Below are positions 55,454 to 60,944 of a DNA stretch of 64,000 bases, in pieces. The first letter of the stretch is position 1; each line of letters opens with the position of its first letter. This DNA comes from Methanolobus sp. (GTDB lineage Archaea > Halobacteriota > Methanosarcinia > Methanosarcinales > Methanosarcinaceae): the NCBI RefSeq assembly GCF_016278365.1, contig NZ_JADQBZ010000011.1:1-64000 (forward strand), in the 5' to 3' direction. The position numbers were made by a program, and so were the translations under genes. Under the pieces are notes generated by a model. That model saw only the letters and a program-made list of their open reading frames with translations, made no database searches and had not been told where the DNA came from.

Positions 55454-55975
55454 ATGAAAGAAAAGAATGAGAAGAACGTAAAACTATTCATTTACCATGC
55501 AAGCCAATGTGACCCCAAAAAATGTACAGGGAAAAAAATGGCGCGCTTTGAGCTTGCCCGCCTTTTCGATAAGGTTAACATGATACCTCGTGAGTCCATT
55601 CTTCTGGATCCAATGGCAGAGAGAGCACTCTCACCGGAAGACACCGACAGGAAAGGCATCACTGTCCTTGATTGTTCTTGGGAGCATGTTGAAGAGGTAT
55701 TTCCACAGCTTGTCAGGCTCAAGCTTCAGCATCGTGCGCTGCCTTACCTGGTCGCAGGCAATCCGGTGAACTTTGGCAGGCCATTCAAACTCACATCAGC
55801 AGAGGCCTTCGCTGCCGCCCTCTACATACTGGGCCACAAAGAGCAGGCACATACGATAATGAATAAATTCAACTGGGGACATACTTTCCTGGAACTTAAC
55901 CACGAGCCTCTCGAAGAATATTCCACAGCAAAGGACAGTACAGAGATATTAAGGATACAAAGCGAATATATGTAA
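55454..55975 (+). CDS. tsr3: rRNA aminocarboxypropyltransferase Tsr3 (DUF367)
   Basis: [86 protein letters not shown]. Confidence 0.93.
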
Positions 55976-55993: not shown

Positions 55994-56115
55994 ATGCAGA
56001 TGCAGATGCAGATCGGAGTTATAGGTGCAGGTACTTGTCACCCGGCGACCTAAAAGCTGCAGAAGAAAATGAGACAGGAAATTGTAAAAAGGGAAGCTTT
56101 CCTATTTGTAGAGAT
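55994..56115 (+). pseudogene. Decayed N-terminal fragment of a TIGR00725/LOG-like Rossmann protein
   Basis: M-Q-M-Q-M-Q-IGVIGAGTCHPAT* in frame 1, KAAEENE in the -1 frame, EIVKREAFLFVEI back in frame 1; compare the typical IGVIGAGxC...AAEEVGREIAKRGAxLVCGG pattern. Confidence 0.5.
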
Positions 56116-56154
56116 ATTATTATATAACATAGAGTATTTTGAAAGAGAAGTGAC

Positions 56155-57156
56155 ATGGAACAAAAATATCTGTTTGACACCAATGTTCTTCTAAAGAACC
56201 CTGCGTTATTGAGAGATTACTATTCTAATGTTGTAATATCACCGACAGTTCTTAACGAATTAGACTATCGAAAAAGATTTGCAGAGCATCAAGAAAACGC
56301 CCAGCTTTCAATCAAGCACATTAACGAGCATCGCATCCTAGTTCTTGACATTGTCAAAGGCTCAAATAAGTCCAATAATGACATGAAAATCATCAGTGAA
56401 GTAAAAGAGTCATCTTTTGCAAGTAAATTAATCATAGTATCAGATGATGAGGGTTTGCAAGTGCTTGCCAGATCCTCCGGCATACTGTGCATTAATCTTG
56501 CGTCATTTCAAAAAGAAATGATGCATTCAATGGATGTTCCAACTGAGGACGATAAACACTTGTTCACTCTAGTGAAGAAAGAACAATTCAAAACTGCTGA
56601 AGTGTTCCTTCAAACGCACCAAATTAATCCCAATTTCATCGGAGAGGATAATCTAACCCCCCTCATACATTTCATTAGAATGAGGAACTTCGATAAAATG
56701 AGCTTCTGGACATCCATACCGGGCTGCGATCTTAATAGATATGATTCTGGAAAGTTCCCTATGACACCATACATGCATGCTGCTCAGAGGGGGTGGCTGA
56801 AAGGAATGCAATATATCCTAGAGAAAGGAGCTAACCCACATCTTTTATCGCGTGGAAAGAATAAAGGGAATAGTGCATTGCTCATCGCAGTATGGGATGG
56901 GAGATTCGAAATCGTTAAATACTTGATAGAGAAAAATAGTCTCCAAATAAGCATTAATCAAGCCGATGGAAACGGATTTACACCTTTGATGAAAGCTGCA
57001 ATAAAAGGGCATAACGAAATTGCAGCATACATCCTAAAGCAACAGGGCATAGATATACTTATACGTGATAGAGATGGAAAAACTGCAGAAGAACACGCGC
57101 AAGAGAAACAGCATTCAGAAATCTTAAAAATGATTAAGGGTTATTTAGGTAAATGA
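56155..57156 (+). CDS. PIN-domain protein fused to ankyrin repeats
   Basis: FDTNVLLKNP, SPTVLNELDYRK, NNDMKII, IVSDDEGLQVLA PIN motifs; ankyrin repeats MTPYMHAAQRGWLKGMQYILEKGANP, NSALLIAVWDGRFEIVKYLIEK, FTPLMKAAIKGHNEIAAYIL. Confidence 0.9.
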   Translation: MEQKYLFDTNVLLKNPALLRDYYSNVVISPTVLNELDYRKRFAEHQENAQLSIKHINEHRILVLDIVKGSNKSNNDMKIISEVKESSFASKLIIVSDDEGLQVLARSSGILCINLASFQKEMMHSMDVPTEDDKHLFTLVKKEQFKTAEVFLQTHQINPNFIGEDNLTPLIHFIRMRNFDKMSFWTSIPGCDLNRYDSGKFPMTPYMHAAQRGWLKGMQYILEKGANPHLLSRGKNKGNSALLIAVWDGRFEIVKYLIEKNSLQISINQADGNGFTPLMKAAIKGHNEIAAYILKQQGIDILIRDRDGKTAEEHAQEKQHSEILKMIKGYLGK

Positions 57157-58217
57157 GACTCGGGATAGACTCAGTCATGGATCAGGTTGAGCGAATATGT
57201 ATTTCTGTTAACACACAATGCAATTACGCATGCGAATATTGTTACTTCTTCGATAGTGAAAATCGTGTTTCATCGAAAAACCCTCTTAATGCAAAAGAAA
57301 TCGAACTGATAATTGAACGTGCTTTTAAATATCATAAGAAATATAATTTTTCTAAAACAATAAAGGTTAATTTCGTAGGAAGTGGAGAACCTCTACTTAA
57401 TTGGGAAGAGTTATCTGAAGCTGTATCAGGGTTCTGGGACCGACACTTTGGACAAGACCGTATTAGATTCTATATTGTGACAAATGGTTCTCTAATTACT
57501 CCCGCAATTGCTCAGGAAATGAAAAGACTTATGATAGTTCCTAGCGTTTCACTTGACGGGCCTAAGGAACTGCACGATACTCACCGCCTTTTCCCTAATG
57601 GAGAAGGAACCTTTGATAAAACTATGAACGGAATCACAATCCTGCAAGATGAAGGATTAAATGTAACAATCAATACTACTCTTACAAGAAATCTGCTGGA
57701 GAATATTGATATGTATATTGATTTTATAATTCAGCAGAGGTTCTCAAAAGTAATCTTTGATCGATTGGTTGATGCTCCAAAAGGAATCGATAAAATATCA
57801 GATGAAGAAAACTATACATTTCTATCTACAACTGCAGAACTCTTAAAGCACAATCTGGAACATCTTGAAATCGGAAACCTTGAGGCATATCAAAGAAGTA
57901 TTTCAGGAATACCTGACCAAGTGTGCACGATGTTTGGTAGCAGTTGTGGTGCAGGCACACATTTTTTGATATATGCAAACAGAGAAGTTTATCCATGTGG
58001 CAGAATGCTGGGGAAAACTCAATGGCTGCTTGGGAACTATAAAGAGGAAATTGATGAACTCCAAAAACGCATGTACAAAAAAATACCTTACAAGAATGAC
58101 TGTCTATCCTGCAACGTTTCAAAAGAATGCATTAGAGATTGTATACTAGAATACAACTGTGATAATTATGACTGCCTGAGTCGTCAAAAATTCCTTTGTA
58201 GCTTTCAAAATAGATAA
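57153..58217 (+). CDS. Radical SAM protein with SPASM-like C-terminal cysteine region
   Basis: CNYACEYCYFF (CxxxCxxC), GSGEPLLNW, C-terminal cysteines CGAGTHFLIYANREVYPCGRM and CLSCNVSKECIRDC. Confidence 0.92.
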   Translation: MRLGIDSVMDQVERICISVNTQCNYACEYCYFFDSENRVSSKNPLNAKEIELIIERAFKYHKKYNFSKTIKVNFVGSGEPLLNWEELSEAVSGFWDRHFGQDRIRFYIVTNGSLITPAIAQEMKRLMIVPSVSLDGPKELHDTHRLFPNGEGTFDKTMNGITILQDEGLNVTINTTLTRNLLENIDMYIDFIIQQRFSKVIFDRLVDAPKGIDKISDEENYTFLSTTAELLKHNLEHLEIGNLEAYQRSISGIPDQVCTMFGSSCGAGTHFLIYANREVYPCGRMLGKTQWLLGNYKEEIDELQKRMYKKIPYKNDCLSCNVSKECIRDCILEYNCDNYDCLSRQKFLCSFQNR

Positions 58218-58232
58218 AATAATGGAGTCAGC

Positions 58233-59432
58233 ATGATTATAGCAATTTATGGAATTTCAGGTTGTGGAAAAACATCCCTATGTAGAGAGATTGAAAAATC
58301 TTCGACACGTTTTAAAATAGTTGATGGTTCATCTTTAATGGATGAACTAATCCCTGGAGGCATCTATGGGTTCAAAAGAATGAACAATGAGGAGAAATAC
58401 AGATACAGAGAATTTGTTATTCGAGAAATTGAATCAAGACACCGCAATGCCCAATACCATACCATTGTTACAGGTCACTACGCTTTTATTAAAAATGATG
58501 GAAATTACGAAATAGCATGGACTAAAGCTGATAGTGAAGTATACGATTACATCTTATGTATTCGGTCAACCCCTGAAAAAATATTAAATCAATGCCTCAA
58601 CGATGTTCAAAGAAAACGCCCTAAATTCTCTGCTTTAAAGTTGCAAGAGTGGCAAGACCTTGAGTACAAAGAGCTTGAAAATGAATGTAAAACCAATGAC
58701 ATTGCTTTTTCACTGTTAAAAGCACCTGATATCCATAATAGACTTGTAGAATTTTACAAGGCACTATCTCAATACTATATCACTGAATTCTGTAAAAGAC
58801 TTATGCATGACTCAAATAAATCATATTCAATATTTGATTGTGATGGAACCCTTTTTTCAGGCGATTGCCTTGATTTTTTAACACTCAATGATGTCATCGA
58901 CAAAGAAAAAGTTCGTTCAATTTTTGAGAAAAGAAGAAATTATTGCTTTGAATCCTTTTTTGAAATAGCACAATACTATTCAAAGATTCCCTCCGTAAAA
59001 ATGCAGGAATTTGTTAATAGAGTTGCCAACTCGATTGTTTTGGATGATACAATCCTGTCGACTCTACAAGAACATGGTCGTAACAGGAATATTATTTGGA
59101 TAACTTCCGGTTTTCCTGATATATGGGAGATTGTAGCCGATAGATACAATCTGAATGTGAAAGTGCTTGGTGGCAATAATCTTTCAAAGAGTGACACTAT
59201 TGTCAGTAATGAGGAAAAAGCATGTCTTGTCAGAACATTCGTGAATCTGGGGGCAGATGTAATTGCTTTCGGTGACTCAATGGTAGATGCAGACATGCTT
59301 AAAAGTGCACAACATGCTGTAGTGGTTATTGGAAAAAAGAGGCGTGAAGACTTATTGAATTATCTTTCAGACCATAAGAGCTTGTCAGTTATGGATATAC
59401 GTCAAATTAAAACAAATGAGGGTAGTCAATGA
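58233..59432 (+). CDS. P-loop kinase-like domain fused to HAD-family phosphatase
   Basis: GISGCGKTS Walker A at the N-terminus; FDCDGTLFSGD, ITSGFP and GDSMVDADML HAD motifs in the C-terminal half. Confidence 0.88.
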   Translation: MIIAIYGISGCGKTSLCREIEKSSTRFKIVDGSSLMDELIPGGIYGFKRMNNEEKYRYREFVIREIESRHRNAQYHTIVTGHYAFIKNDGNYEIAWTKADSEVYDYILCIRSTPEKILNQCLNDVQRKRPKFSALKLQEWQDLEYKELENECKTNDIAFSLLKAPDIHNRLVEFYKALSQYYITEFCKRLMHDSNKSYSIFDCDGTLFSGDCLDFLTLNDVIDKEKVRSIFEKRRNYCFESFFEIAQYYSKIPSVKMQEFVNRVANSIVLDDTILSTLQEHGRNRNIIWITSGFPDIWEIVADRYNLNVKVLGGNNLSKSDTIVSNEEKACLVRTFVNLGADVIAFGDSMVDADMLKSAQHAVVVIGKKRREDLLNYLSDHKSLSVMDIRQIKTNEGSQ

Positions 59433-60049
59433 TTACTAGTCTAGAAAAAAGCAGTAAAGCTGTGCAGATATTATCAACACAATCCCGACGTGCTGATATT
59501 AATCCTGTTAATTTAAAAGAAATACACCGTACACTAGGCCAGTTACTCAGTTATGAGTATGTAAATTCATTGGATTTACATCCGATCGAGATATGTCACG
59601 TCCAAGGATTGAAAAAAGGTATGGATATTGCTCCACATGAGTTTACTTTAATTCTAACAATGATGCGTTCAGGGCTTTATGTTGCAGACGGATTCAGGGA
59701 AATTCTTGGCTCTCATTCACGACTTGAATTCATTGATGAAAAGACGAGCATAACTCAAATTCTTTCTAAATATAGTCTTAAGAGTATAAATGTAGTTATT
59801 GTTGATTCAGTCATTAACACAGGAAATTCAATTAAGAAAGTAATTGATTCTTTGCCCGGCTTTAAAAGCCTTACTATTGTTTGCCAAGTAATGCACTCAG
59901 AGTTTGCGCAGTCTGAATTTATTGATAGAGAAAACATTCATTTCATTACCTGCAGAATTTCTCAAAATTTTTATGTTGGGAGTGGTAAAACAGATACGGG
60001 CAATAGACTTTTTGGTTTTGTTCCTAGATTCAATGAGGATTTGTCATGA
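59429..60049 (+). CDS. Phosphoribosyltransferase, UPRTase-like
   Basis: LTMMRSGLYVADGFREIL; VVIVDSVINTGNSIKKVID PRPP-loop-like motif; 4-bp overlap with the preceding stop. Confidence 0.82.
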   Translation: MITSLEKSSKAVQILSTQSRRADINPVNLKEIHRTLGQLLSYEYVNSLDLHPIEICHVQGLKKGMDIAPHEFTLILTMMRSGLYVADGFREILGSHSRLEFIDEKTSITQILSKYSLKSINVVIVDSVINTGNSIKKVIDSLPGFKSLTIVCQVMHSEFAQSEFIDRENIHFITCRISQNFYVGSGKTDTGNRLFGFVPRFNEDLS

Positions 60050-60170: not shown

Positions 60171-60944
60171 TCACAACTCTATGACTATCCCCAGTGGACA
60201 GTGATCCGATCCCGGGACCTCAGGCATGATGAACGAGTCACGGATGTTTTCCATTGCATTTTCACTTGCATAAAAATAGTCTATTCTCCAGCCCACGTTG
60301 CGGGCCCTTGCTCCTGACCTCACGCTCCACCAGGTATATTGCCCGGGCTCCGGGTGCATGGATCTGAATGTATCAACGTATCCTTGTGAGAGGAACTTGT
60401 CTATCCATGCTCTCTCCTCCAGGAGGAAACCAGAGATAGTCTCATTCTCTTTCGGACGCGCCAGATCTATCTCCTTGTGAGCAGTATTCACATCGCCGCA
60501 GATAACAAGCTTCTTTCCCTGCCCTTTCAGTTCCCGGGCATACTCCAGAAAAGCATCATAGAACTCCATTTTATAATCCAGCCTATCCTGGGATGCTTTT
60601 CCATTCGGGAAATAGATGTTGAACAATATAAAACCCCCATAGTCTGCTATAAGGGTACGTCCTTCTCTGTCGAACTTCGGGATACCAAAACCGCATTTAA
60701 TGCTCAAAGGCTCTTTTTTGGTATAGATTGCCACACCACTGTAACCTTTTTTCTCAGCCGATGAAAAATAACTGTAATAACCTTTCATTTCAGTAAGTTC
60801 AGGACCCAGCTGTTCTTTTTGCGCCTTTGTCTCCTGGATACACAGGATATCAGGCTGCTCTTTTTGAAGCCATTCCGAAAAGCCCTTTTTCTGCACAGAC
60901 CTTATACCATTCACATTCCATGAGATTATCTTCATTTTTTCCAT
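60171..60944 (-). CDS. xth: Exodeoxyribonuclease III / AP endonuclease
   Basis: [55 protein letters not shown]. Confidence 0.95.

Follow-up and report, generated by a model that had tools for sequence, protein, structure and literature searches.

Bacterial viperins produce ddhCTP, ddhUTP and ddhGTP, and these block RNA synthesis (PMC10732462). In prokaryotic viperin (pVip) operons, this radical S-adenosylmethionine (SAM) enzyme is paired with a nucleotide kinase, VakA. We analysed a 64,000-nucleotide stretch of Methanolobus sp. DNA (contig NZ_JADQBZ010000011.1, positions 1 to 64,000; hereafter the window), in which a cassette of four plus-strand genes sets a radical SAM enzyme of a different class beside a kinase of the VakA family. 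The sequence comparisons below indicate that the cassette is a discrete, horizontally moving module. It is apparently undescribed: the initial annotation, made from the letters alone, recognised no standard pathway, and a literature search turned up no published system built from these components. The reading that we tentatively prefer is a viperin-like mobile module for the production or control of a modified nucleotide of pyrimidine type, in which a PIN RNase would be the effector. The cassette comprises the following features.

56155..57156, plus strand: PIN nuclease domain at residues 5-114, ankyrin repeats at about residues 189-326; PIN_4 1.8e-10, Ank_2 1.4e-22
57153..58217, plus strand: radical SAM/SPASM enzyme, PapB/anSME-like; Radical_SAM 1.9e-17, full-length SPASM-family matches
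58101..58142, plus strand: SPASM motif CLSCNVSKECIRDC (CX2CX5CX3C), kept in all three carriers of the cassette
58233..59432, plus strand: fusion of a VakA-like P-loop kinase (about residues 1-165) with a HAD-IB phosphatase (about residues 199-370); AAA_17 1.3e-12, HAD 5.5e-9
59429..60049, plus strand: phosphoribosyltransferase (PRTase) of the uracil phosphoribosyltransferase (UPRTase) family, intact phosphoribosyl pyrophosphate (PRPP) loop; PF14681 1.4e-22 and motifs

The four reading frames, with their 4-bp overlaps and 15-bp gap, are as first annotated, and the suggestion that they look like a single transcriptional unit is supported; family profile matches uphold the domain calls for all four proteins. 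Among about 400 sampled relatives, the complete set in identical order occurs beyond the window only in G005, a congener, and in Methanogenium sp. MK-MG (G432), which belongs to another class. Across the phylum, 3 genomes out of 394 encode the PRTase; within Methanogenium's order, the one genome among 199 that encodes it is Methanogenium itself. Only the three carriers have a radical SAM protein scoring above 500 bits, the next score dropping to about 92 bits, and a sample of 295 genomes yielded the PIN-ankyrin protein twice, each time in a carrier (the third carrier, G432, lies outside that sample). In G432 the cassette is split between contig C58, which holds the PIN-ankyrin gene, the radical SAM gene and the start of the kinase (MIIAVYGISGCGKTSLC...), and contig C144, which holds the remainder; the gap spans some 36 residues within the kinase domain. 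Wherever one cassette gene was found all four were present, and no gene was found alone, a co-occurrence that rests on three carriers. The condition that the initial annotation had named as refuting its reading, a lack of co-occurrence in other genomes, did not apply.

The cassette proteins are 56-70% identical among the carriers. All four window proteins are nearer to those of Methanogenium (58-70%) than to those of the congener (56-65%), unlike tsr3, for which the order is reversed (76% identity to G005, 55% to Methanogenium), and the horizontal acquisition proposed in the initial annotation is thus corroborated. Its remark on A+T-richness also stood up to a check of GC content and codon positions: the cassette has 34-38% GC against 44.5% for the window, and GC at third codon positions is 26-38% in its genes, tsr3 and xth both lying near 50%. 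Catalytic motifs are intact in every carrier, namely the PIN acidic residues, CxxxCxxC, the SPASM cysteines, Walker A, the HAD DxDGT and GDSxxD motifs and the PRPP loop. Since nonsynonymous divergence (dN) between carriers is 0.21-0.35 while synonymous divergence (dS) exceeds 1.4 or is saturated, the genes are under purifying selection. That G005 and Methanogenium both have these four genes in one and the same order, at 56-70% identity and with dN far below dS, goes beyond chance. Phage and plasmid collections gave no match with the kinase-HAD protein and the PRTase as queries; with the radical SAM protein, the plasmid matches listed were just generic maturases below 28% identity. Viral contigs returned nothing for the PRTase, kinase-HAD and PIN-ankyrin proteins and weak partial matches only for the radical SAM protein. 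For other phyla, one contig scan with narrow peptide patterns returned Methanogenium only, which does not establish rarity outside the phylum.

The link to viperin operons comes from the kinase. With the kinase-HAD protein as query, 100 related genomes yielded the congener's orthologue and nine VakA-type kinases that aligned over the kinase domain only, and a viperin-like radical SAM gene adjoins eight of these nine. At the ninth locus (L010) none lies in the stretch examined; a Csa3-like regulator gene is present there, as at other loci. When two of these operons were scored with family models, the kinases scored as VakA (85 and 134 bits) and their radical SAM partners as viperin. Direct comparison of the cassette kinase with VakA-type kinases by hhalign gave 97.8% probability (E 9e-13) over 159 columns, motifs beyond the P-loop included, which by profile identifies the kinase half as a VakA homologue, although the PADLOC VakA model reaches it with E 0.047 only. 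This homology is in line with the original proposal that the enzymes suit work on a modified nucleotide, which they would make or control. The HAD half has a predicted fold resembling SerB phosphoserine phosphatase and cytosolic 5'-nucleotidase III (AlphaFold confidence score, pLDDT, about 75-90); the kinase half of that model was left out of fold claims.

The viperin operons of these related methanogens (L003-L011) consist of viperin and VakA. In several, another viperin-like radical SAM gene follows downstream (L005:2025-2783, NF038283 155 bits); most adjoin a Csa3/CARF-like regulator gene (L010:510-1265, PADLOC Csa3 298 bits).

The cassette radical SAM protein itself is not a viperin. The viperin family NF038283 is outside its 25 best NCBIfam matches, and with the PADLOC pVip model it scores 63 bits, against 253-270 bits for pVip in relatives. 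Its best matches are SPASM maturases: over its full length it matches PapB with 128 bits (curated cut-off 340) and anaerobic sulfatase maturases (anSME) with 114 bits (cut-off 349), and its solved relatives are 5wgg and 4k36. Both the CxxxCxxC motif and the cysteines of a canonical SPASM domain are present; the three loci share no conserved small open reading frame that could encode a linked precursor peptide, and the unit contains no sulfatase. A viperin identity was therefore ruled out, and since that identity defines pVip, the cassette falls outside the system. A comparison with PADLOC-DB 2.0.0 likewise gave no described defence gene set, only ankyrin, radical SAM and weak kinase and PRTase matches.

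The PRTase belongs to the UPRTase domain family (PF14681, 80.6 bits against a cut-off of 27) and has the PRPP loop VDSVINTGNS. As a upp equivalog it scores far too low, with 39 bits against 208 for TIGR01091 and 41 against 114 for NF001097. The GDAGDR base motif of Upp is altered to TDTGNR, while the C-terminal base motif and the PRPP loop are retained. The PIN-ankyrin protein is confidently modelled (mean pLDDT 89.5), keeps the PIN acidic motifs in all three carriers and is predicted to be an RNase effector; fold matches of its ankyrin part are generic and include the RNase L sensor.

The insertion site provides a further clue. As claimed, the cassette is flanked by tsr3 and xth, and its surroundings in the window are as follows.

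55454..55975, plus strand: tsr3, flanking gene outside the module
about 55994..56113, plus strand: decayed 5' remnant of a TIGR00725 (LOG/SLOG cluster 4) gene, stopping after 19 codons at TAA 56051-56053
56117..56127, plus strand: TATA-like stretch TTATTATATAA, read from sequence, a possible archaeal promoter at the junction
60171..60944, minus strand: xth-type nuclease gene, flanking gene outside the module

The initial annotation had pointed to this locus in related genomes for comparison, and in congeners the readable tsr3-xth intervals hold a gene of roughly 150 codons that belongs to TIGR00725 (142.5 bits, cut-off 106.9; Pfam SLOG cluster 4, 149.6 bits). Its remnant in the window, which had been missed, sits just upstream of the cassette, 41 nt before the first gene. 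The cassette occupies the TIGR00725 position in both the window and G005, in opposite orientations relative to tsr3 and xth, and the two cassettes are more diverged than their flanks. Given these orientations and this excess divergence, it is simplest to assume that the cassette was acquired twice, independently; a single acquisition with a later inversion is possible. No TIGR00725 match exists anywhere in the G005 genome, and the gene is kept in all 25 other congeners, so that within the genus only the two carriers are without it. In Methanogenium sp. MK-MG, TIGR00725 lies upstream of dtdA, where a clean deletion of about 500 nt has left about 36 codons of it (L088:2829-2952, contig C71 of G432); the Methanogenium congener G371 retains the gene, as do four further members of that genus. 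We considered a cassette inserted at Methanogenium's own LOG locus and rejected it, the two loci being unlinked. A general insertion hotspot between tsr3 and xth was not supported either: the readable congener intervals carry TIGR00725 and no other sizeable cargo.

Elsewhere in Methanogenium's family, contigs of G474 and G489 break inside TIGR00725 near codons 43-47 and 62 (L113, L114 and L115); these ends may mark an inserted element or plain assembly gaps.

At the cassette ends, the search for repeats of at least 10 bp found none. The TATA-like stretch is a possible promoter candidate judged by its letters, and it is not conserved at the G005 and Methanogenium loci; scans for sigma-70 promoters and terminators gave chance level only, with models that do not cover archaeal promoters, and an Rfam scan found no RNA family. 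Farther downstream, window:61264-63528 encodes an amino-acid permease-like protein with apparent C-terminal UspA-like domains, as read from the translation.

LOG-type enzymes act as phosphoribohydrolases, splitting nucleoside 5'-monophosphates into the base and ribose phosphate (PMC8234997). Both the GGxxGTxxE Glu and the catalytic Arg are present in the TIGR00725 protein, which, judging by these residues, is likely to be a nucleoside-monophosphate phosphoribohydrolase. Such a reaction would be the functional opposite of that of the cassette PRTase, which may connect the two. In the mechanism that we infer, the module would work like a prokaryotic viperin operon, with its radical SAM enzyme and VakA-type kinase, except that a SPASM enzyme would replace viperin and that the UPRTase-type PRTase and the fused HAD phosphatase would be additions to the scheme. 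The PRTase would combine PRPP with a uracil-like base, yielding a nucleoside monophosphate. Phosphorylation by the kinase half would lead on to the di- or triphosphate, and the HAD half would take phosphate off the nucleotide as an off-switch or for editing. The radical SAM enzyme would modify the nucleotide, or a protein carrying it. The RNase effector would be the PIN-ankyrin protein, which would sense the product or a partner through its ankyrin repeats. The resident TIGR00725 protein would undo the PRTase step, and this reversal would explain why the gene is lost in carriers. The exclusive gene set and its restriction to genomes that have lost TIGR00725 suggest a nucleotide-based system of defence or conflict, but the stress, defence or toxin-like function named in the initial annotation is conjectural. 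A bolder form of the proposal, which we consider improbable, is a new archaeal nucleotide-signal immune system: the PRTase, the kinase/HAD protein and the SPASM enzyme would make a modified pyrimidine nucleotide that gates the PIN-ankyrin RNase, on a principle parallel to that of 2-5A/RNase L or of viperin, and the host's LOG-type phosphoribohydrolase would have been removed as a destroyer of the signal or its precursor.

Several observations weigh against a nucleotide-making module. The radical SAM protein is a non-viperin whose SPASM relatives mostly act on peptides or proteins, the kinase half of the AlphaFold model has low confidence, and no test here predicts the substrates of the kinase, the HAD domain or the PRTase. 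The cassette has no defence-island context and no virus link, and with only three carriers the co-occurrence statistics are small. The TIGR00725 activity is itself a prediction, and 8 of the 28 genomes of Methanogenium's family are without a TIGR00725 match, so the third loss taken alone is unremarkable; the three losses together are suggestive of, and do not prove, an incompatibility with the cassette.

The main rival takes the maturase relationship of the radical SAM protein at face value: the SPASM enzyme would modify a peptide or a cassette protein, as PapB and anaerobic sulfatase maturases do, and the kinase, HAD and PRTase would add or remove phosphate or a nucleotide. Although the top full-length matches favour it, a search for precursors of ribosomally synthesized modified peptides found no conserved small open reading frame in or beside the three cassettes, with only 41 nt separating the TIGR00725 remnant from the first gene in the window, and the unit has no transporter or peptidase gene; we regard it as possible, if unlikely. 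Rather unlikely, too, is a role in salvage or house-cleaning of a damaged or foreign pyrimidine, with the HAD domain stripping phosphate and the PRTase and kinase reusing the base. Such a cassette would take over the job of TIGR00725, whose place it occupies in two genomes and which the third carrier has lost, but a rare, mobile and A+T-rich module is an odd vehicle for salvage, the PIN-ankyrin nuclease would be superfluous, and just one of the 8 family members without TIGR00725 has the cassette.

The remaining alternatives centre on the nuclease. PIN domains are common as toxin RNases, the PIN-ankyrin gene is the first of the operon and the reading frames overlap, all of which would suit a toxin regulated or neutralised by the other three genes. 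We hold such a toxin-antitoxin-like unit to be very unlikely, however, for there is no small antitoxin gene and the three enzymes have intact active sites under purifying selection. The initial annotation had also raised RNA cleavage followed by end-healing, in which PIN would cut RNA and the kinase-HAD protein would be a polynucleotide kinase-phosphatase. The gene order and a weak phage polynucleotide-kinase match to the P-loop region (E 0.008) agree with it, but that match is the sole one, polynucleotide kinase-phosphatase families do not rise above noise and neither domain is of their type: the kinase groups with VakA and the HAD domain with SerB and 5'-nucleotidase III. A ligase is absent, the PRTase and radical SAM enzyme would be left unexplained, and we consider this suggestion highly improbable.

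If a viperin-like nucleotide module is the correct reading, viperin-like chemistry would extend beyond the viperins: a radical SAM enzyme of another class would be working with a kinase of the same family, in a module that also supplies base charging and an RNase effector of its own. Repeated loss of the LOG-type gene would then yield a directly testable prediction, seldom available for an orphan cassette, namely a substrate open to cleavage by a phosphoribohydrolase, and possibly hints at a function for the widespread uncharacterised TIGR00725 family.

The cassette resembles several known systems and departs from each. It shares with T4-type polynucleotide kinase-phosphatase the kinase-HAD order in one chain, yet both domains come from other families. 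Like Upp, its PRTase is a UPRTase-family protein with the PRPP loop and the C-terminal base motif; unlike Upp, it lies far under the equivalog cut-offs, has TDTGNR for GDAGDR and is confined to the cassette in the sampled genomes. Full-length similarity and SPASM cluster motifs tie the radical SAM protein to PapB and anSME, whereas its scores stay well under their curated cut-offs and a peptide substrate gene is absent nearby. RNase L joins an ankyrin sensor to an RNase and is gated by 2-5A. In the cassette, too, a predicted ribonuclease carries ankyrin repeats and is encoded among enzymes that handle nucleotides, but its nuclease is a PIN domain and not of the RNase L type, and its ankyrin matches are generic. 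Closest are the pVip/VakA operons, present in the same archaeal family as the window, in which a radical SAM gene likewise adjoins a P-loop kinase of the same family. From these the cassette differs in its SPASM-type radical SAM enzyme, its HAD-fused kinase and its extra UPRTase and PIN-ankyrin genes; it is a radical-SAM-plus-nucleotide-kinase variant and not a member of pVip.

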